Shown here piece by piece: positions 1 through 8,700 of a stretch of DNA of 46,172 bases (positions are counted from its first letter, which is position 1; each line of letters opens with the position of its first letter). The notes under the pieces are model-generated. The model saw nothing but the letters and a program-made list of their open reading frames with translations. It did no database searches and was not told where the DNA came from. This DNA comes from Bacteroidota bacterium. Its GTDB lineage: Bacteria; Bacteroidota; Ignavibacteria; Ignavibacteriales; Ignavibacteriaceae. The stretch spans positions 1 to 46,172 of the forward strand of contig JAMCWE010000258.1 of assembly GCA_023475265.1 (NCBI GenBank). The letters run 5' to 3'. Made by a program: the position numbers and the translations under genes.

Positions 1-37
1 AATTTTTAATTTTACATTTTTAATTGTTCATTGAATT

Positions 38-106
38 GCCCGGATGGTGAAATTGGTAGACTTGCCTACCGGCAGGTAGGCACGCTAGGTTCAGAGTCTA
101 ATGCTG
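38..106 (+). pseudogene. Disrupted 5' part of a tRNA-Leu(CAG) gene
   Basis: This segment repeats the first two thirds of the intact tRNA-Leu at 366-449: the acceptor 5' strand GCCCGGA, the D arm GGTGAAATTGGTAGAC and the anticodon arm with CAG in the loop. It differs by a 20-nt insertion after GGTAGAC (62-81) and by two substitutions in the anticodon arm (TTCAGAG and TCTAA instead of TTCAGGG and TCTAG). After TGCTG at 102-106 the similarity ends, and the variable arm, T arm and 3' acceptor strand are replaced by the leader of the GIY-YIG gene. It cannot fold into a tRNA. It is best read as a duplicate or remnant produced when the GIY-YIG segment entered the tRNA gene. Confidence 0.75.
62..81. 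repeat. 20-nt hairpin insertion in the D arm of the broken tRNA copy
   Basis: Compared with the intact tRNA-Leu, exactly 20 nt are added between GGTAGAC and ACGCTAGG. Positions 64-70 (GCCTACC) pair perfectly with 75-81 (GGTAGGC) around the loop GGCA. It looks like a small mobile palindrome of the REP/MITE kind rather than a tRNA intron, because the adjoining tRNA copy is already non-functional. No duplicated target bases can be defined with confidence. Confidence 0.6.
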
Positions 107-125
107 AGCGAAGGAAGGAAAAACT

Positions 126-359
126 TTGTACCAGGTATATGCTATTAAAAGTATTAACAGAAATTATATTTATGTTGGGATGACTAGTAATCTCGAAGAA
201 AGATTAAAGAGACATAATAATGGATATGAGAGAACAACTAAACCATATAAACCCTTTAAACTGATATATTCAGAAGTTTATACAACAAGAGTTGAAGCAA
301 GAAAAAGGGAAAAATATTTTAAGTCTGGAATTGGGAAAGAGTTCTTAAAAAAAATATAA
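126..359 (+). CDS. Small GIY-YIG nuclease family protein
   Basis: A 77-residue single-domain GIY-YIG protein. The motif is seen as YQVYAIKS near the N-terminus, then YIYVGMTSNLEERLKRHNNG (about residues 15-34) with the conserved Gly and Arg, and the C-terminal AxxREKYFKSGxGKEFL. This is the UPF0213-like family common as single genes in Bacteroidota; its members resemble the catalytic module of homing endonucleases and UvrC, but their role in cells is largely unknown. The start is a TTG at 126, chosen because AAGGAAGG at 111-118 sits 7 nt upstream and no in-frame ATG precedes it. It lies directly after a broken tRNA-Leu copy and 6 nt before an intact one, which suggests insertion into the tRNA locus. 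Confidence 0.85.
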   Translation: MYQVYAIKSINRNYIYVGMTSNLEERLKRHNNGYERTTKPYKPFKLIYSEVYTTRVEARKREKYFKSGIGKEFLKKI

Positions 360-365
360 GTTTTT

Positions 366-449
366 GCCCGGATGGTGAAATTGGTAGACACGCTAGGTTC
401 AGGGTCTAGTGCTGGCAACGGCATGGGGGTTCGAGTCCCCCTTCGGGCA
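366..449 (+). tRNA. tRNA-Leu(CAG)
   Basis: An 84-nt class II tRNA. The acceptor stem GCCCGGA pairs with TTCGGGC with one G-U pair. The D arm follows, then the anticodon stem CTAGG/TCTAG around loop TTCAGGG (anticodon CAG), a long variable arm (TGCTGGCAACGGCAT region) and the T arm GGGGG-TTCGAGT-CCCCC. The discriminator is A449 and CCA is not encoded. A run of six T follows at 451-456 and may end transcription. The T9SS cargo gene starts 43 nt downstream. Confidence 0.95.
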
Positions 450-492
450 CTTTTTTAAGCGTTATATTTTTCAAAACAAATGGGGTGCATTT

Positions 493-1608
493 ATGAAAAA
501 ATATATTTTATTACTTGCCTTGTCTTTGGGAGTTCAATCTTTCCTGTGGTCTAATCCAATTGATGGTACTCCATTTACAAAATTTTCCGAATTAGTTTTT
601 GACAATAATAATAATTGGACGATGGAAATTTTGTTTTCCCCTGGTGGATATGGTTCTAAAACAGACAGCATTGTCATCGTCGTCTCAAATATTTCGGCAA
701 AATTAAAAGCTAATTATCCATCTTGGGCGCAAGTTGGAATAATTACTGCTGATAGTCTAACTGTTCCATTAGTTATTAACCGCAGCGGAGACAAGATCTT
801 AATCTATACCTATTCATATGGACAAGCAGTTAGAATGGATAGTGTGATTTTTGGAAATTATCCTTATGCTACTATAGGTGCGCCGATAAATGGCTATTCA
901 ATAATCAGAAATTCATGGAGATATTCTTCTAATTACATAACCATTACTTGTCTAACAAATAAACCTTCTCTTGGTGTAGTAAATGATACCACTGGATTAA
1001 CCAGCATACTAACTGGCAACATGTACGATGCGAATAATAATCTTGTAACAAAACTTAAAGTGTTTCCTTCCGCGCCTAGTTATTTTGTATTAGAAACTCC
1101 AATTACTATTGATTCCAATGGAACATATAGTACAAAGATTTTTCCTATAACATTTTCACCTCAAACACTAACAGTAAGATTGGCAGATTTTGGGGGATGG
1201 ATAGATTATCAAAATATTGAGTCTTTTGAATTAAAAGATATACACCCTGACACTGTAGTAATTCATGATATACATCTAATGGACAATAGATATGTTGTTA
1301 CTTCAGTTGATAAAGAAATATATAATACTAACGATGAATTGGCGTTGATAAACTATCCTAATCCATTTAATCTTTCAACAAATTTCTTTATCAAGCTCCC
1401 GAATAAAATGAAAGGGAAACCGGGAAATATTAATATCTATAGTGTTAACGGGCAGCTGATTAGAACAATCCAGGTTAGCGGAAGCGCAACAATATTATGG
1501 GATAGTAAAGATATGAATGGAAGAATAATGCCTTCCGGAGTTTATTATTACCGGCTTGTTATAGATAAGCAAGTAATGAAAAACGGTTCGATGATTTTGC
1601 TAAAGTGA
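493..1608 (+). CDS. Secreted protein with C-terminal type IX secretion sorting domain
   Basis: A 371-residue exported protein. Residues 1-22 form a signal peptide (MKKYILLLALSLGVQSFLWS). The middle, about 25-275, is beta-rich and not recognised. About residues 285-371 form a type A sorting domain: NYPNPFNLSTNF, then NIYSVNGQLIR, ILWDSKDMNGR and GVYYYRL, ending in the usual short hydrophobic strand. The family is secreted through the outer membrane by the type IX system, whose SprA and PorX are encoded in this window. The open frame extends upstream into the tRNA to 409, but the ATG at 493 is chosen because the signal peptide begins there and GGGGT lies just upstream. It is followed after one nucleotide by the 1610 gene, so the two are probably co-transcribed. 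Confidence 0.85.
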   Translation: MKKYILLLALSLGVQSFLWSNPIDGTPFTKFSELVFDNNNNWTMEILFSPGGYGSKTDSIVIVVSNISAKLKANYPSWAQVGIITADSLTVPLVINRSGDKILIYTYSYGQAVRMDSVIFGNYPYATIGAPINGYSIIRNSWRYSSNYITITCLTNKPSLGVVNDTTGLTSILTGNMYDANNNLVTKLKVFPSAPSYFVLETPITIDSNGTYSTKIFPITFSPQTLTVRLADFGGWIDYQNIESFELKDIHPDTVVIHDIHLMDNRYVVTSVDKEIYNTNDELALINYPNPFNLSTNFFIKLPNKMKGKPGNINIYSVNGQLIRTIQVSGSATILWDSKDMNGRIMPSGVYYYRLVIDKQVMKNGSMILLK

Positions 1609-1609
1609 T

Positions 1610-2164
1610 ATGATAAAAATTTCATGGTTACTGTTATTTATTTGCTCGTTTGCCTACGGACAGAGAGCGAACTTCTTTAAAGAAGATATTACATTCCGTC
1701 TTGACAGCATTCATTTTAATGTTGAAGGTTATTACTGGTTTGCAAATAACTCGGATAAGCCGGTCAGCAGTGATATATTTTATCCATTCCCAAATTCTTC
1801 CGGTGAAAAGATTGATTCAATTCGACTCTTTAATATTTCAGCGGGGCAAAAAACACACTACAAGTTGGAAGGCTCGAATGGAATATCATTTGATTTATTT
1901 ATCGCACCTCATGATACAGTTCTTTTCCAAATTGGATACAGGCAGGAATTAACCAGTGATAGTGCGGAATATATTCTAAGAACTACGCAAGGATGGGGCA
2001 AGCCATTAGAGCATGCAGAATATAAACTGATCGTTCCCGCTGATTTCAAAATAAAAAATTTTTCATATCAGCCTGATAAATCCTACAATATTGAAAATCA
2101 AAAAATATATTACTGGAAAATGGAAAACTTTATGCCTTCACGCGATATGGTATTTTATTTCTGA
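1610..2164 (+). CDS. Exported protein of unknown function
   Basis: A 184-residue protein starting with a signal peptide (MIKISWLLLFICSFAYGQ). The rest is predicted to be beta-rich with many aromatic residues (for example EGYYWFANNSDKPV) and ends FMPSRDMVFYF. No catalytic motif, lipobox or type IX sorting domain is visible, so a periplasmic or membrane-surface location is likely. The ATG lies one base after the stop of the preceding type IX cargo gene, with no strong ribosome binding site of its own, which points to translational coupling and a shared role. No family is recognised with confidence. Confidence 0.7.
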   Translation: MIKISWLLLFICSFAYGQRANFFKEDITFRLDSIHFNVEGYYWFANNSDKPVSSDIFYPFPNSSGEKIDSIRLFNISAGQKTHYKLEGSNGISFDLFIAPHDTVLFQIGYRQELTSDSAEYILRTTQGWGKPLEHAEYKLIVPADFKIKNFSYQPDKSYNIENQKIYYWKMENFMPSRDMVFYF

Positions 2165-2298
2165 ATAAATAATTGCGAAAAAAATTGATGAAATTTCTGC
2201 TTAATTGTAAAATATACTTCTTCAATTTATTTTTAGCTTATTATTGATGCTATAAAAAATTTTTATTAAGTTTTGTACATATTTTCAAGAGGGAAAAG

Positions 2299-2466
2299 GT
2301 GACTATAGGTTCAATATTAAATCTAAAATTACCGTCGGTTGATAGTAATATTTTTCTAATCGATTTTTTGCTTACCAAGCATTTTCATTCTACATGCAGC
2401 ACTGACGGGGAAAAGTTATTTAACACATATTCATATTTCCCAAATTTTTATTTGCACGAGTTGTAA
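2299..2466 (+). CDS. Possible small ORF, 55 residues
   Basis: A GTG at 2299 opens a 55-codon frame ending in TAA at 2464-2466. AGAGGG at 2288-2293 lies 5 nt upstream, a good Shine-Dalgarno spacing, which is the main reason to list it. The product begins MTIGSILNLKLPSVDSNIF and ends in FPNFYLHEL; it has no recognised motif. It is followed by a hairpin at 2481-2500 and then the 21-bp array. It could be a leader peptide, a decayed gene fragment or chance; there is no independent support for expression. Confidence 0.25.
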   Translation: MTIGSILNLKLPSVDSNIFLIDFLLTKHFHSTCSTDGEKLFNTYSYFPNFYLHEL

Positions 2467-2625
2467 GGTCCTTTATTGCGTTGCCGCTTTCACACGGCAA
2501 TTGATAATTACACGATTCTAAATCTTGTAATTCATTAGGCTGATTATACTTTTAAATTAAACATTTAAAAGCTGCAATAGTTATTTATGTTTTTGCAAAC
2601 TTCATTTTGTAAATAGACTTTATGC

Positions 2626-2890
2626 TTGTAAATCACGACTTGACTTATGTAAAAATAGACTAGGCTATTGCAAAAATTAACCTTGTGATTGTAAACGTTG
2701 ACCAGGTAATTGCAAAAGTTAACTAGGCTATTGTAAAAGTAAACCTTGTGATTGCAAACATTAAACAGCTAATTACAAAACCTAACTAGGTAATTGCAAA
2801 AGTTAAGTAGGCAGTTGTAAAAATTGACTAAGGCATTGTAAATCCAAAATGTATCATTGTAAAAACTGTATGGGCTATTGTTGCAAAAGA
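2626..2890. repeat. 21-bp periodic degenerate tandem array, 13 units in register
   Basis: The core TTG(C/T)AAA recurs at 2626, 2647 (ATGTAAA), 2668, 2689, 2710, 2731, 2752, 2773 (TTACAAA), 2794, 2815, 2836, 2857 and 2878 (TTGTTGC), every step exactly 21 bp. A consensus unit is TTGCAAAAGTTAACTAGGCTA. Between 2647 and 2772 the units also form a three-unit, 63-bp higher-order repeat, shown by suffixes CTAGGCTA, CCTTGTGA and CAG(G/C)TAA recurring in that order. All plus-strand frames contain stops. One minus-strand frame stays open for 67 codons but lacks a start. The period equals two turns of B-DNA and brings the A-tracts into phase. Confidence 0.85.
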
Positions 2891-3029
2891 AATGGCAAAA
2901 GGAACTCTAAAAACCTGTATTTCTTAAATAAAATATAGGATTGTTTAAAAAAGAGTGAAAAATGAAAATAAATGGCTCGATTCAATCAATAAATAATTAT
3001 CAATTTATTAATTACTAAGGGAGGTTCGG

Positions 3030-3761
3030 ATGTCTTCTCAGAGAACATTTCAGGCAATTTTAGGCAAATTTTCGGCTGGATTGGTTATTTTAAAAAATGC
3101 AATTGGATATAATCCATCGAAAAATATTTTAAAACTTACCTCACTTGAGGTACAAAAGACCGATGCGGAAGCTAAAAACTCTGCTGTTTTAACTGCAGAA
3201 AATATAGAGCAGGAATTACGAAAAAGCCGCAGGTTTATGGCTTTCAAAACAAAAGATTCTGATGAAAATTGTATTGAAAGCAGGATCAAAGCGATTGCAA
3301 ATTATATAAAAGCCGAGCACGATGCTAAATACCCGGCATATTTACAAGTCACTTCTATTATTTCAAAGATTCAGCCGCCGTCTGAAAAAAAGGCTGCACC
3401 GGCTGAAGGCGCAGATCCAAAGAAATCAATATCCAAAAGTGAAAAGAGCTATCAATCGCTTGTTGGGTTTGGAAATAATGTACATACAATTATTTCCAAT
3501 CTGGGCGCTGATTATAATCCCTCCAACACAAATATTACTGTTGCAAACTTTAGAGCAAAAGTAGATGAGCTTGCATCATTAAATTCCCAGATAGTAACTG
3601 CGGAAAAAAATTATGCAACGGCAGTACTAGAACGTAATGAAGCTTATAACGGTGAAGCAGGGATCAATTCAACCATGACTTCAATTAAGGATTATCTTGC
3701 AAGCTTAGAAGGCGGCAAGAAAAATCCGGATTATGTTGCGTATGTAAATGCGGTAAAATGA
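3030..3761 (+). CDS. Two-fold-repeat helical protein of unknown function
   Basis: A 243-residue, charged, largely helical protein with no signal peptide or membrane segment, so probably cytoplasmic. It shows an internal duplication: residues about 12-70 and 140-205 each have a helix, then the motif YNPS (AIGYNPSKNILKL and GADYNPSNTNITV), then a helix rich in Ala, Lys and Glu. A Pro/Ala/Lys-rich linker (PPSEKKAAPAEGADP) joins the halves. The start is firm: ATG at 3030 with AAGGGAGG 5 nt upstream. It lies after the 21-bp array and before a REP-like module, with no operon partner. Proteins of this general look occur in Ignavibacteria and Bacteroidota as uncharacterised families, as far as I can recall; no function is assigned. 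Confidence 0.75.
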   Translation: MSSQRTFQAILGKFSAGLVILKNAIGYNPSKNILKLTSLEVQKTDAEAKNSAVLTAENIEQELRKSRRFMAFKTKDSDENCIESRIKAIANYIKAEHDAKYPAYLQVTSIISKIQPPSEKKAAPAEGADPKKSISKSEKSYQSLVGFGNNVHTIISNLGADYNPSNTNITVANFRAKVDELASLNSQIVTAEKNYATAVLERNEAYNGEAGINSTMTSIKDYLASLEGGKKNPDYVAYVNAVK

Positions 3762-3790
3762 AAAGAAAAAATATCAATTAATAATTCCAG

Positions 3791-3882
3791 CAGTCCAACG
3801 ACAAATGTTGTGGGCTGCATTTATAAAATGTGTATGATTATTGCAAAAAGATAAATGCAGCCCATAGCCTCGGCTATGGGAT
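3791..3882. repeat. REP-like double-hairpin module R1
   Basis: Two hairpins about 40 nt apart. The first is an imperfect palindrome around ACGACAAATGTTGTGGG. The second is a perfect 9-bp stem, CCCATAGCC/GGCTATGGG, with a 2-nt loop. The first is followed by CTGCATTTATAAAATGTGTA, nearly identical to the flank of module R2. The layout resembles REP/BIME elements mobilised by IS200-like RAYT transposases; no such gene is in the window. Confidence 0.65.
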
Positions 3883-3978
3883 AGGAAAAAATAAAACAAA
3901 AAACGAGGAACAGTTTCAACGGTTTACAAATTATGTGATTTTCAATTGTACATCAAAAAATATTGATTGGTTGTAGTA

Positions 3979-4099
3979 AGTCGTTAAAACGACTAAGAAA
4001 TATTTTATTGAGTATTCATGCCCACGACAAATGTCGTGGGTTGCATTTATAAAATGTATAAGAATAGTAAATAGATTAATGGCAAGCCCATAGGGCTCA
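3979..4099. repeat. REP-like triple-hairpin module R2
   Basis: Three palindromes in a row: AGTCGTTAAAACGACT (3979-3994), then CCCACGACA/TGTCGTGGG with a 2-nt loop, then AGCCC-ATA-GGGCT (4085-4097). The stretch from the first to the second palindrome is shared almost base for base with module R3 at 5667, and the segment after the second is shared with R1. It ends about 45 bp before the S41-like gene, and R3 lies just after that gene in the same orientation. Confidence 0.7.
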
Positions 4100-4145
4100 G
4101 TTAACTAATTGTGAAGTTTTGTATTTATTTTGATTAGGAGGTCAT

Positions 4146-5636
4146 ATGAAGATTGCTAGGTTATTCTTCTTTCTATTTTTATTACAAAGTTTAAACGCAC
4201 AAGGATTTACTCCTTCTCTTCCTGTTCAATCAACAGAGATTTATAAAAATTCCAATATTTATCAACAAGATTTTCTTTACTTGTGTGAAGGTCTGGTTGA
4301 ATTTCACGCAAATGTTTTTAAGAATTTTCCCGAAAAAGAATTTAATAAAGAGAAAGAAACGTACTATAAAGATTTAGCAGCCTGCAATAATGAAAAAGAA
4401 TTTGGATATATAGCGAACAAATTTACTAATCGAATAAGGGACCTCCATACCAACGTAAAAATCAAAGGTGCGATAGGGAATAATTATACTTACCCATTCA
4501 GATGTAAATACCTTGTTGATACTCTTGTAATTATGGCTGTTTCCGATCAATTGCCGTTTTCATTATGCGGCGAACGAATAAAAAGTATAAATGGAATCGA
4601 CATAAAGGATATTGAGAAGAAATCTTCTGAGATTTATATAACTGAAAATTATGTGAGCTTGCAGAATAATATTATGCAAAGTATAAATACAACAGGATAT
4701 TTAAAGAGCACCGGGATTATTCATGCCGACACTGAAGGAGTAAAGGTATCTACTTATGGAGGTAAGGAATTCGAGGCATTTCCTAATTTTAACGGCGAGT
4801 GGAAATCTCAAATACCAAACAACCCTTCCATAACAGAAAGAATTTCCGAACCTTTTTCTTATAAGATAGTAAAGGAAGACAGCTTATGTTATATTCAGTT
4901 TAATCAGATGGTTGATAAACGGATAGGGGAAATGTATTTGGATTTGATTCCTTTTTGGAAGCGCTGGTTTGTAAAGACTATAAGATTCTTTGGAGGAAGT
5001 GCAGGTTTTTCCAAAGAGAATTTTGAAGATTTTTTGAATCTCTGTATCGAAGACATTGAAAAAAATAATATTAAGAAAGTAATTGTTGATTTAAGATGGA
5101 ACACAGGTGGGAGTGCGTCCCTTGGAGATATTCTTTTATATGCGTTTGGTGTTGATAAATATAAAAGTTATACAAGCGAGATAAAAGAATCTGAACTTTA
5201 TAAATTGCAAATGAAAACTTTAGGAATAGAAAAAGTTATATCTGATGATAAAGATACAACCGACGGATTTCGTTATACTAAGTTTGCAAAAGGTGTGGAA
5301 AATATAAAAAGTAGATTTCATGGGGATGTTTATTTTATTACATCGGAATGGACTTTCAGTGCTGCCGTTCAGCTTGCTACAATAGTGGAAGACAACCATC
5401 TATTCAAGGTTGTTGGCGAGCCAATATCGGAAAGGCCTTCGCATTTTGGTGAGGTACTCTTTTTGAAACTACCCAATACCAAAGTAATTTGTTCTATAAG
5501 TAGTAAATTGTTCCATCGTCCCGATCAATCGAAAGATAATGACGAAACTCTTTATCCTGATGTTACTATATATAAAACTTATGATAGCATAAAAGAGGGG
5601 ATAGACCCTGTTTACAATTGGATTGTGAGACATTAA
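4146..5636 (+). CDS. Exported S41-family peptidase-like protein
   Basis: A 496-residue exported protein with a signal peptide (about residues 1-18, ending SLNAQG). The C-terminal half matches the S41 tail-specific protease fold: KKVIVDLRWNTGGSASLGD (about 312-330), GDVYFITSEWTFSAAVQLA with the expected nucleophile near Ser405, GEPISERPSHFGE, and the closing LYPDVTI. The lysine that pairs with the serine in CtpA-type enzymes (usual context GKxTFGKG) is not evident in GEPISERPSHFGE, so activity may use another residue or be lost. RBS AGGAGG lies just before the ATG. The gene stands alone between two REP-like modules. A periplasmic or outer-surface role is likely; the substrate is unknown. Confidence 0.75.
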   Translation: MKIARLFFFLFLLQSLNAQGFTPSLPVQSTEIYKNSNIYQQDFLYLCEGLVEFHANVFKNFPEKEFNKEKETYYKDLAACNNEKEFGYIANKFTNRIRDLHTNVKIKGAIGNNYTYPFRCKYLVDTLVIMAVSDQLPFSLCGERIKSINGIDIKDIEKKSSEIYITENYVSLQNNIMQSINTTGYLKSTGIIHADTEGVKVSTYGGKEFEAFPNFNGEWKSQIPNNPSITERISEPFSYKIVKEDSLCYIQFNQMVDKRIGEMYLDLIPFWKRWFVKTIRFFGGSAGFSKENFEDFLNLCIEDIEKNNIKKVIVDLRWNTGGSASLGDILLYAFGVDKYKSYTSEIKESELYKLQMKTLGIEKVISDDKDTTDGFRYTKFAKGVENIKSRFHGDVYFITSEWTFSAAVQLATIVEDNHLFKVVGEPISERPSHFGEVLFLKLPNTKVICSISSKLFHRPDQSKDNDETLYPDVTIYKTYDSIKEGIDPVYNWIVRH

Positions 5637-5666
5637 ATAAAAAATGCTGCCTAACAACAGATGAAA

Positions 5667-5735
5667 GTAGTTAAAACGACTAAGAAATATTTTATTGATT
5701 ATTAATGCCCACGACCGGGGTCGTGGCTGCATTAA
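5667..5735. repeat. REP-like module R3
   Basis: Starts with AGTTAAAACGACT, continues with the same TAAGAAATATTTTATTGA segment as R2, then the palindrome CCACGACC-GG-GGTCGTGG and CTGCATTA. It is in direct orientation to R2. Its hairpin lies between the convergent S41-like and propeller-phosphatase genes and may also act as a terminator. Confidence 0.65.
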
Positions 5736-5764
5736 TTTTTTTATGTTTAATTATTTACAAAAGA

Positions 5765-8700
5765 TTAATTAATTTTAATAACTATTACAGTCATGTCATC
5801 GTGCCTTTGTTGTTTGCCGGAAAACTTTTCCACATCTTTAATTATTTCTACTTTAATTTCTGAGGCTGACATCTCACTTGTTTTCAAATTCATAAGTAGA
5901 ATTTTAAGCCTCTCTTCGCCGTAAAGTTCATTCGTACTATTTTGCGCTTCTGAAATTCCGTCTGACATAAAAATTAATAAATCACCTTTGTTTAATTGTA
6001 ATTTTTCTTCAAGATAATTTACTTCTTTCATCATGCCTAAAGGGAATCGCGGACCTTCGGATTTAATAAATTTAATTTTGTTGTTTGTCTTTATAAGTGG
6101 ATTGGGAAGACCGGCATTGGTAAATGATAATTCTTTTGAACCTACATTTATTACTGCAAGACAAACTGCCGTGAACATTTCTTTATTTGTTTTGAGGTAA
6201 AGCGGAGTATTAACCTTTTTTAAAATAGTATTTATTGAATTAGCTTCATTTATTTCTGAAATTAACATTCCATTTGTCATCACAGCAGTCATTGCTGCTT
6301 TCATTCCTTTTCCGGAAACATCGCCGACAATTATTCCAAACTTTGATTTATCATTATTCAACCAAAAATAATCAAAGAAATCCCCGCCGACTTCATTTGC
6401 TGGAATGCAAATGTTAGAAATATCCAGCCCTTCAATTACCGGCGCTGAATTCGGCATGATGGACATTTGAGCGTCGTGTGCTGTCTTCAATTCCACTTTC
6501 ATTCTAATATTTTTCAAACGGTTTTTGTAGAAAATAAATCCGAAGGTAATAACTAAACCTGAAATCAAAGTAGTGAACCACCAGGTTCGCCAATACGGCG
6601 GGGTAATAAAAATATTTATCGAAGCTCCTTTTTCATTCCAAATCCCATCACTATTAGTTGCTTTAACTCTGAATCTATAATTGCCTGGATTTAAGGTTGT
6701 ATAACTCGCAAATCTTTTTTCCGAATTTGTATAAATCCAATCTTTATCCAAGCCTTCCATTTTGTATGCATATTTATTTTTTTGTGGTGCGGCAAAATCC
6801 AGTGAAGTAAATTCGAATGAAAAAACATAATCCTGATAGGAAAGCTCAATTTCTTTTATATCTGAAATTGGTTTATCAAATTGAATTTCATTATTAAATT
6901 TTTGAAATGAAGTTATAATTACAGGCGGTAGGAAAGTATTATCTTTTATTTCTTTTGGGTAAAAAGAATTGAATCCGTTTATTCCGCCGAAAAACATTTC
7001 GCCGCTGTTACTTTTAAAATAAGAGCCTCCGTTAAATTCATTATCCTGAAGTCCGTCGCTTGCTGTATAATTTTTAAATGCAGTTGTTTGTGGATTAAAT
7101 TTTGATAATCCCTTATTTGTGCTCAGCCAAAGATTTTCATTTTCGTCCGCTAATATTGCATAGATTGCGTCACTCGGAAGTCCATCCTTTGAAGTGAAAT
7201 AATTAAATGTTTCGGTTTGGGGATTAAATTTATTCAGACCGCCGCCCCATGTTCCGATCCATAGATTTCCTAATTTGTCTTCATATATTGAAAAGATGTA
7301 ATCATTATTGATTTTGTTTTTACCTTTGGGATCTGATCTATATGAAGAGAACGTCTCTTTATTTCTATCAAATTTGTTTAAACCGCCTCCTTCGGTACCG
7401 ACCCAAAAATTACCCGATCTATCTTCGTAAATTTCTCTAACAAAATTATTGCTTAAGCTATTCGGAATATTTGGATCATTTTTGTAATGTATAAATTTCT
7501 CGGTCTGCTTATCAAATTTTTCCAAACCTCTTCCGTATGTGCCGATCCAAACTGTTCCTGATCTATCTTTATATATTTTTCTTACTTCATCAAATGTTAA
7601 ACTACCAGGATCATTCGGATTATTTCTATATTGTTTGAACTTTCCGGTTTTTCTATCAAATTTATTTACTCCGCCGCCGTGTGTTCCGATCCATAAAAAT
7701 CCTTCATTATCTTCAATTATATTTCGTACAATATTATTGCTTAAACTATTTAAATCACTTGGATTGTTTCTATAATGATTGTAAGTATTTGTTTTTCTAT
7801 TTAACCGGTCAAGCCCTCCTCCGTGAGTTCCGATCCATAAGATTCCTTCTTTATCTTCATACATTGCCCACACAATAGCATGACTCAAACTGTTACTTTC
7901 GTTAGGTCTGTGCATATAATGATAGAATTGTCTTGCACCTCTGGTAACCTTGTTTATTCCGGCTCCGTAGGTTCCTATCCACATGATCCCGGATTTATCT
8001 TTAAAGATGCTTCTAATTTCATTATAGCTTAAAGTGTGTCTATTCAATGGGTCATTTATATATCTGATAAATTTATTATTGTTTTTATCGTAAATATTAA
8101 TTCCGCCGCCGTTTGTGCCGATCCATAAATTATGGTAATTATCTTCGCATAAAGAATAAATCTGATTATGACTTATGCTCGATAAGTTATTAGGATCATT
8201 TTTATAATTAATGAAGCTTTCTGAATTATTATTTTTTATCAACTTGTTCAAACCATTATCAGTACCTATCCATAAATTTCCATAGCTGTCCTGAAGAATT
8301 GCTCTGACAATATTATTAGAAATACTTCGTTTGTCTTTCGAATCAAACTTATAATTAACAAAAATTGGAGTAGAATAATTTGTTTGTTCACTGATTATTT
8401 TATTCAAGCCATCCTGGGTTCCGATCCAAATATTTCCTGTTTTGTCTTGGTAAATAGAATAAACTGTATTGTTGCTAATACTGGTTTTATTTTTCGGGTC
8501 ATTTAAGAAATGTAAAAACGAGAAGTTTTTTGTGGCTGAGTCAATTACTAATCTATTTAATCCGAAATCAGTGCCGATCCAAAGGTTGCCGGAATTATCT
8601 TCTAATATTGCATTTATGTTATTATGGCTGAGTGAATTTGGATTTCCTAATTCATTTTGAAAACGTTTAATTATCTTTTTTGATTGATCAAATCTATTTA

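Follow-up and report, generated by a model that had tools for sequence, protein, structure and literature searches.

Iterons are directional sites of about 20–22 bp that lie in helical phase and are bound by a two-domain Rep protein encoded alongside, and in the partition systems parC/ParR, tubC/TubR, and parS/ParB a helically phased array is coated by a small protein encoded next to it. In type III toxin-antitoxin systems (ToxIN), repeats of about 35–45 nt act as RNA and lie beside the gene for a beta-barrel RNase. Here, we compare these three with a locus from a Bacteroidota genome of the Ignavibacteriaceae (contig JAMCWE010000258.1, the whole 46,172-nucleotide stretch that was analyzed being called the window), in which an array of 21-bp units adjoins a gene that starts at position 3030. 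Like iterons and Rep, the locus has helically phased directional sites beside the gene for a two-domain protein; unlike Rep, the 3030-type protein is predicted by AlphaFold to be nearly all-helical and not winged-helix, conserved neighbors are lacking, and the protein of one relative (L016) has no match in 72,556 plasmid records, nor any phage match. Centromere arrays differ in that neither a partition NTPase nor any other conserved neighbor accompanies the pair at the 80 loci compared, and in that a genome often holds several copies of it. ToxIN likewise pairs an array of repeats with a single protein gene, and at times a terminator stands between the two, but the unit here is 21 bp, 37 arrays contained no dyads, the protein is predicted to be helical, and no toxin profile matched the 3030 family in Pfam, NCBIfam, or PADLOC. 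Among the titles and abstract openings listed for openly available journals, we found no description of an array or element of this type.

The array and the 3030 gene in the window

The locus comprises the following features, all on the forward strand:

2593..2613, + strand: two extra cores out of register, TTGCAAA at 2593 and TTGTAAA at 2607, 14 and 19 bp from the next core
2626..2877, + strand: 21-bp array of 12 units in exact register, unit TTG(C/T)AAAAGTTAACTAGG(T/C)(A/T)A on the strand of the 3030 gene
2881..2887, + strand: last core, TTGCAAA, 24 bp past the previous core and so 3 bp out of register
2888..3029, + strand: leader from array to gene, in which AAGGGAGG at 3017–3024 resembles a ribosome binding site (by eye)
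3030..3761, + strand: 243-aa gene of an unnamed family, its product basic (pI 9.15) and predicted to be nearly all-helical, with two tandem four-helix domains

The array lies far beyond chance, since identity at a lag of 21 bp reaches 0.643 over 210 bp (0.662 at lag 63, 0.619 at lag 42) and the maximum simulated at any lag from 10 to 100 was 0.448 (20 simulations of the whole window under a first-order Markov model); outside the array, the strongest repeat in the window scores 0.533, at lag 87. A first-pass annotation of this DNA had read 13 units, spaced by exactly 21 bp without an indel and each bearing TTG(C/T)AAA. Twelve of these stand, and the register is strict inside 2626–2877; it is broken at both edges, where the supposed thirteenth core at 2881 is 3 bp off and the cores at 2593 and 2607 also fall out of step. 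The TTG(C/T)AAA core is exact in 10 of the 12 in-register units and one base off in the other two (ATGTAAA at 2647, TTACAAA at 2773). A three-unit, 63-bp order that had been thought partly visible was not significant when unit order was permuted (p = 0.096), nor was a 42-bp order (p = 0.70), in an analysis for which 63 arrays had enough units. No second copy of the array was found in the window's own genome.

On the plus strand, the region that starts 400 bp ahead of the array and ends at the 3030 gene gave no instance of TAnnTTTG, which we take to be the Bacteroidota −7 element. A sigma-70 consensus scan of 2100–4200 returned 20 matches versus 10.3 (sd 3.0) in shuffles, and since six of them lie on the minus strand, inside the array or at its edge, a promoter role is possible there. 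Farther to the left, positions 41–449 hold a partial tRNA-like stretch, an ORF (126–359) that presumably resembles GIY-YIG nucleases (by eye), and an intact tRNA (366–449; Rfam), an arrangement suggestive of a tRNA duplication that encloses a nuclease ORF. Over positions 1–6000 of the window, Rfam gave one tRNA alone above the gathering score and one chance-level match below it.

Functionally, the 3030 product matched no Pfam family above the cut-off and no NCBIfam model at all; PHROGs (E 0.18) and PADLOC (E 0.016) returned weak matches only, all of those in PADLOC having E 0.01 or worse, and no nuclease or recombinase family rose above any cut-off in Pfam, NCBIfam, PHROGs, or PADLOC. A sequence search of the PDB had a best E of 0.14. 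Modeled with AlphaFold, the window protein (pLDDT 88) and a relative from Flavobacterium (pLDDT 90) each have two tandem four-helix domains with a low-confidence linker, and Foldseek found nothing at E ≤ 0.001 for the L095 model against the PDB or for the window model against BFVD. With VIA-align, the best Z for the L095 model among the families listed there was 8.9, which is below the value of about 13 where helical bundles become informative. Generic bundles were all that the structure searches brought up, and the fold is itself predicted to be such a helical bundle, in which no DNA-binding motif is recognized. Relatives are usually basic (median pI 9.40, range 5.7–10.0, n = 78) and keep an uninterrupted reading frame in 77 of 80 loci, and the family is under strong purifying selection, as dN/dS was 0.04–0.11 in nine of ten pairs (the tenth was saturated).

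Linkage of array and gene, and recurrence of the pair

The first-pass annotation had tied the array to the 3030 gene, and the link is real, since relatives of this gene carry 21-bp arrays. Five of 59 genomes searched, the window's own included, gave 11 matches to the 3030 protein, which reduce to 10 distinct loci (window included), and all 10 have a 21-bp array near the gene, with units mostly unlike those of the window. A profile search of 395 genomes of the phylum found matches in nine, again counting the window's own, and 7 of the 12 further distinct places that it contributed have a 21-bp array; the other five are L024, L032, L031, and two matches of 30 residues. Simple 8-bp repeats (TAATCCAA, TGGAGTGT; 8/16-bp) lie beside the gene at L024:1230–1335 and L032:2170–2250 (genome G292), and 24-bp repeats of the GGCTGAGCAATGTCGAAG type lie beside a divergent family member at L031:790–915. 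The annotation had expected no other unit length in this place, an expectation broken by these few exceptions only (L024, L032, L031).

A scan of 84,980 species' genomes reported 307 relatives, the best 80 of which supply the figures below; they carry Bacteroidota-type titles, except for one 'uncultured bacterium', and six of them are loci already found in the 59-genome search. By a fixed rule, a period p was called if three or more of the five top lags were divisible by p. Downstream of the gene, this gave period 21 in 76 of the 78 loci that could be tested among these best 80 (L102 and L109 being those that miss it) and any other period from 15 to 35 in none of the 78; upstream of the gene, period 21 was called in none of the 78 loci and period 18 in two. 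The two loci left out, L089 and L105, had less than 200 bp available, and the 175 bp of L105 still show lag 21. The same rule fires for p = 21 inside 13 of the 80 genes themselves, presumably because of heptad codons of long helices. The arrays have a median length of 11.4 units (69 arrays). As for the side of the gene, the upstream position given in the annotation holds for the window, its closest relatives (L018, L014, L015), and two distant ones (L029, L030), and fails for most of the family, where the array is downstream. The window array is thus one example of a widespread bacterial gene-plus-array pair. Nothing else is conserved around the pair: the largest cluster of neighboring ORFs (at least 100 aa, within about 3 kb) spans 3 of the 80 loci. 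Two candidates were rejected, namely a weak array-like match in another genome (L171), which is a 7-bp simple repeat, and a CRISPR array, given that the units vary throughout and that spacers and conserved neighbors are absent.

Gene and array recur together as a block of roughly 1.3 kb in differing contexts. F. gelidilacus has two copies of a 1.33-kb block (upstream region, gene, array, and tail) with 94% identity in different contexts; L071 and L073, from one other genome, have 1.36 kb in common at 90%, plus further short flanking matches, and L114 and L121 represent 1.25 kb common to two Pedobacter genomes. No terminal repeats or target duplications were noticed by eye in the three pairs inspected. 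Each of ten genomes, all picked for holding a copy, contained 1–7 matches, fragments included, and many relatives sit on draft contigs. Four congeneric genomes conserve the window's left neighbors, and their homology to the window stops short of the array. One alignment of the family (A2) matched one viral contig (L123), also with a 21-bp array downstream of the gene. A contig of F. gelidilacus (L173:1443–1900) carries a terminator, a 21-bp array, and a tail that are homologous to L095 without the gene, i.e., a solo array. An attC-like imperfect inverted repeat was noticed by eye close to where the shared block ends on the right (L095:4100–4250, L117:4192), and an attC-like pattern ending in AACGTTA, which is one form only of the integron attC, occurs in 2 of 80 loci, at the element end in L117 (4192) and 2.3 kb upstream of the gene in L100 (127).

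Fixed spacing, drifting sequence, and a parallel in DUF6261

For the composition, motif, terminator, and spacing tests, arrays scoring below 12 were excluded, which kept 69 of 79 scored loci, and the window array was added to the 69 for the variability, palindrome, motif, spacing, and unit-order tests. All 515 spacings between strong units, across 70 arrays, were multiples of 21, and none was 20 or 22; these arrays had first been located by their 21-bp lag, and the scan, which reached 250 bp past each array end and would show strong shifted units, passed over the out-of-register cores of the window. Removal of near-duplicates took the 70 arrays to 37 for the variability and palindrome tests, dropping the window array (three 12-mers in common with L061), which was tested alone since it was absent from the 37; the motif test used 46 arrays, the window included. 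In the 37 arrays, bases 21 apart agree at 66% on average, and units differ almost completely between loci. The earlier suggestion that strict spacing combined with loose sequence points to selection on geometry is borne out by the uniform spacings and the 66% agreement, although the register is partly inherited, because units copy one another. Pairwise alignments of related arrays held 4 gaps that are multiples of 21 and 30 others, counts that ragged array ends spoil; the non-array sequence in the same alignments held 46 gaps, none a multiple of 21.

The 46 non-redundant arrays have in common a motif that is weak but directional; read on the strand of the gene, it is approximately CAACYGCAA-N6-AAACT. 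It scored 140.8 versus a null mean of 72.7 (sd 3.8; 20 null runs, with fewer restarts), and its strand relative to the gene is the same in 41 of the 46; common descent can explain part of both the shared motif and the choice of strand. Variability within the unit is raised at 21 and at 10.5 bp (both p < 0.0005, 37 arrays), with a 10.5-bp peak that does not reliably exceed the 21-bp one (bootstrap 0.58) and therefore may reflect motif clustering only. In the window array alone, the 21-bp component is nominally raised (p = 0.04), with p = 0.21 at 10.5 bp and p = 0.94 at 3 bp. Since the sequence is free and the 21-bp spacing hardly changes, the array can probably be read as a track on which the protein of the adjoining gene docks.

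Counts of promoters and a cruder count of terminators come from 64 of the 80 loci, and counts of neighbors from all 80. At the 64 loci, the density of TAnnTTTG per kb is 3.44 over the 150 bp that precede the gene, 0.20 in the gap between gene and array, 0.38 in the array, and 0.42 antisense after the array. Of 69 loci, 23 have an intrinsic terminator no more than 130 bp from the stop codon; in 10 of the 69 it falls in the gap (1.0 expected), and 13 are inside or just after the array limits, 12 of these in the first 37% of the array. Because terminators lie near the stop codon and TAnnTTTG is enriched before the gene and rare in the gap, much or most of the array seems in many loci to be outside the gene's transcript, probably so. 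The cruder scan of the sense strand (64 loci) gave equal numbers of terminators, 12 each, for the gap and for the 150 bp that follow the array, and thus the terminator picture is not uniform. At L096, L100, L082, L098, and L095, the terminator hairpin just past the stop codon carries the array motif in its arms (e.g., GCAATAAG, AACTGCAATTG; by eye), as if the arms were built from an inverted pair of array units.

A comparable arrangement was found for DUF6261 (PF19775), genes of which occur in 2 of 148 genomes of the phylum sample and in 65 of 197 genomes of one family. Two of the 34 loci sampled gave no ORF, and 25 of the remaining 32 have a clear array, 22 hand-chosen arrays reducing to 15 non-redundant ones. 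Upstream of the gene, the top lag is 41, 42, or 82–84 in 29 of 32 loci (24 strong, 5 weak), which corresponds to about four helical turns or double that number, and downstream such a lag occurs in 1 of 32 (weak). The DUF6261 pair resembles the 3030 pair in its protein of about 240 aa, its array directly beside the gene, and its period near a multiple of about 10.4 bp, and differs in that the period is 41/42 instead of 21, the array is upstream of the gene, and 7 of the 15 non-redundant arrays are palindromic (p < 0.01). Upstream units of 41 or 42 bp, some of them palindromic, occur at L038, L041, L125, L134, L136, L143, and other loci; by eye, L136 and L143 have a whole-unit 42-bp palindrome with two dyad centers 21 bp apart. 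At the 25 loci with a clear array, eight TAnnTTTG sites precede the array by 75–121 bp and another seven fall between it and the gene, so some of these arrays may be a transcribed leader. The window protein has no DUF6261 profile match, nor does the window's genome, and the best profile score among the relatives of the 3030 protein (L022, E 0.018) was 15.4 bits versus a cut-off of 27; hhalign aligned the two families with a probability of 16–21% and an E of 0.001–0.0017, as a single comparison. Titles and abstracts, within the same scope as above, yielded nothing relevant on DUF6261, and the DUF6261 arrays are strong enough to merit separate study.

What the pair may be

The annotation had also offered two readings of the array that involve no binding protein, and neither fared well. 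A former open frame of 7-residue units, now decayed, is in our view highly improbable. The slight excess of stop-free frames is the main result that favors coding (29 of 69 on each strand, versus nulls of 21.6 sense and 20.6 antisense with an sd of about 3.3, in permuted units), and one antisense frame of the window array has a single stop; yet period-3 variability has a power of 0.065, below the permutation null, in the 37 arrays (p = 0.94 in the window), the core TTTACAAA falls in different frames in L016 and L017, and several DUF6261 arrays have a period of 41, which is not a multiple of a codon and therefore counts against coding. Intrinsically curved DNA, with A-tracts on one face, would fit the A+T-rich units, the short A-tracts, and the exact two-turn spacing, as would a neutral satellite without a protein partner, and we regard this pair of accounts as very unlikely: AA/TT power at 10.5 bp is 0.7 in the window versus a mean of 4.5 in column-permuted units and is not raised in the 37 other non-redundant arrays, so that the curvature claim finds no support, and a neutral satellite would hardly adjoin one gene family in 76 of 78 loci with a single period. 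AA/TT power is raised at two other periods, 7 bp in the pooled 37 arrays (11.4 versus 5.0 in the null) and 5.25 bp in the window array (p = 0.006).

If the array were transcribed, the protein could bind the repeat as RNA, which would then serve in self-regulation, as a leader or a 3′ region, or as a scaffold. An RNA also fits the constant strand of the motif with respect to the gene (41 of 46 arrays), and this account can draw on the 12 sense-strand terminators just past the array in the cruder scan of 64 loci and, from DUF6261, on the eight promoter-like sites upstream of arrays (25 loci) and the 7 of 15 non-redundant arrays that are palindromic and could form hairpins. However, hairpin potential is not raised in the 21-bp arrays, where dyad symmetry was not found (mean z −0.31, 0 of 37 arrays at p < 0.05; window p = 0.44), 23 of 69 loci, with an array following, place a terminator no farther than 130 bp from the gene's stop, TAnnTTTG is rare both in the gap (at 0.20 per kb) and on the antisense strand past the array (at 0.42 per kb), and an RNA does not obviously need a period of exactly 21 or 41/42; binding at the RNA level is therefore, to our judgment, unlikely. 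A mobile or selfish element, in which gene and array form a small cassette, the array serving as a recombination or maintenance site and the protein aiding its copying, would account for the near-identical F. gelidilacus blocks (94% over 1.33 kb, in different contexts) and the similar block of L071 and L073, for 1–7 matches in each of the ten genomes picked for holding a copy, for the patchy presence in 9 of 395 phylum genomes (own included), for absence beside the same left neighbors in four congeneric genomes, and for the array that stands without its gene in F. gelidilacus. Against it, no nuclease or recombinase family rises above any cut-off, three pairs showed no terminal repeats or target duplications by eye, L071 and L073 have other short flanking matches in common, the attC-like pattern sits at the element end in one locus only, and the L016 protein lacks plasmid and phage matches, with one viral contig in alignment A2; we hold this account to be quite improbable.

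The explanation that we favor, with belief and doubt about balanced, is a self-contained element in which a protein comes with the helically phased array of DNA sites that it would bind. We posit that the gene encodes a basic protein with two tandem helical domains joined by a flexible linker, and that the adjacent array would be its DNA target, offering about 11 directional sites, one per two turns of B-DNA and on the same face. The protein might occupy these sites side by side and so form a regular nucleoprotein track, which would have an architectural job: bridging, anchoring, or stabilizing its own locus. That the protein binds its array, that it does so as DNA rather than RNA, and that its role is architectural are three steps that we infer; DNA binding by the family protein has about an even chance, and within the DNA reading an architectural track is favored because nothing else is conserved nearby. 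Observed directly are the linkage of gene and array, the constant period, the lack of coding character, the common directional motif, the purifying selection on the protein, and the recurrence of the pair as a single block. Weighing against the proposal are the generic predicted fold, the uncertain standing of the 10.5-bp peak, the constant motif strand, which would suit an RNA too, the terminators past the array in the cruder scan, the sigma-70 matches in and beside the window array, the promoter-like sites upstream of DUF6261 arrays, the partly inherited register, the relatives that lack a 21-bp array, and the three out-of-register cores of the window. The periods of 21 and 41/42, 41 being indivisible by three, together with the little coding signal, fit two and four turns of B-DNA.

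From a broader perspective, the two families could belong to a phylum-wide, previously unnamed class of mobile nucleoprotein cassettes, in which a two-domain helical protein and its own phased array form an ordered chromosomal track, with two turns per site here and four, in alternating orientation, in DUF6261, and in which the geometry is inherited and the recognized sequence drifts with the protein; we advance this tentatively and with more doubt than belief. Databases list these two families as nothing at all or as of 'unknown function', and each is linked to an array that is non-coding and constant in period; this linkage gives hundreds of genes a concrete and testable candidate function, namely array binding. 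The arrays also amount to a natural experiment, with a recognition sequence that changes almost beyond recognition and a spacing held to the base pair. If the proposal is true, it would add a new kind of chromosomal site to a phylum that dominates in the gut and is frequent in aquatic habitats.
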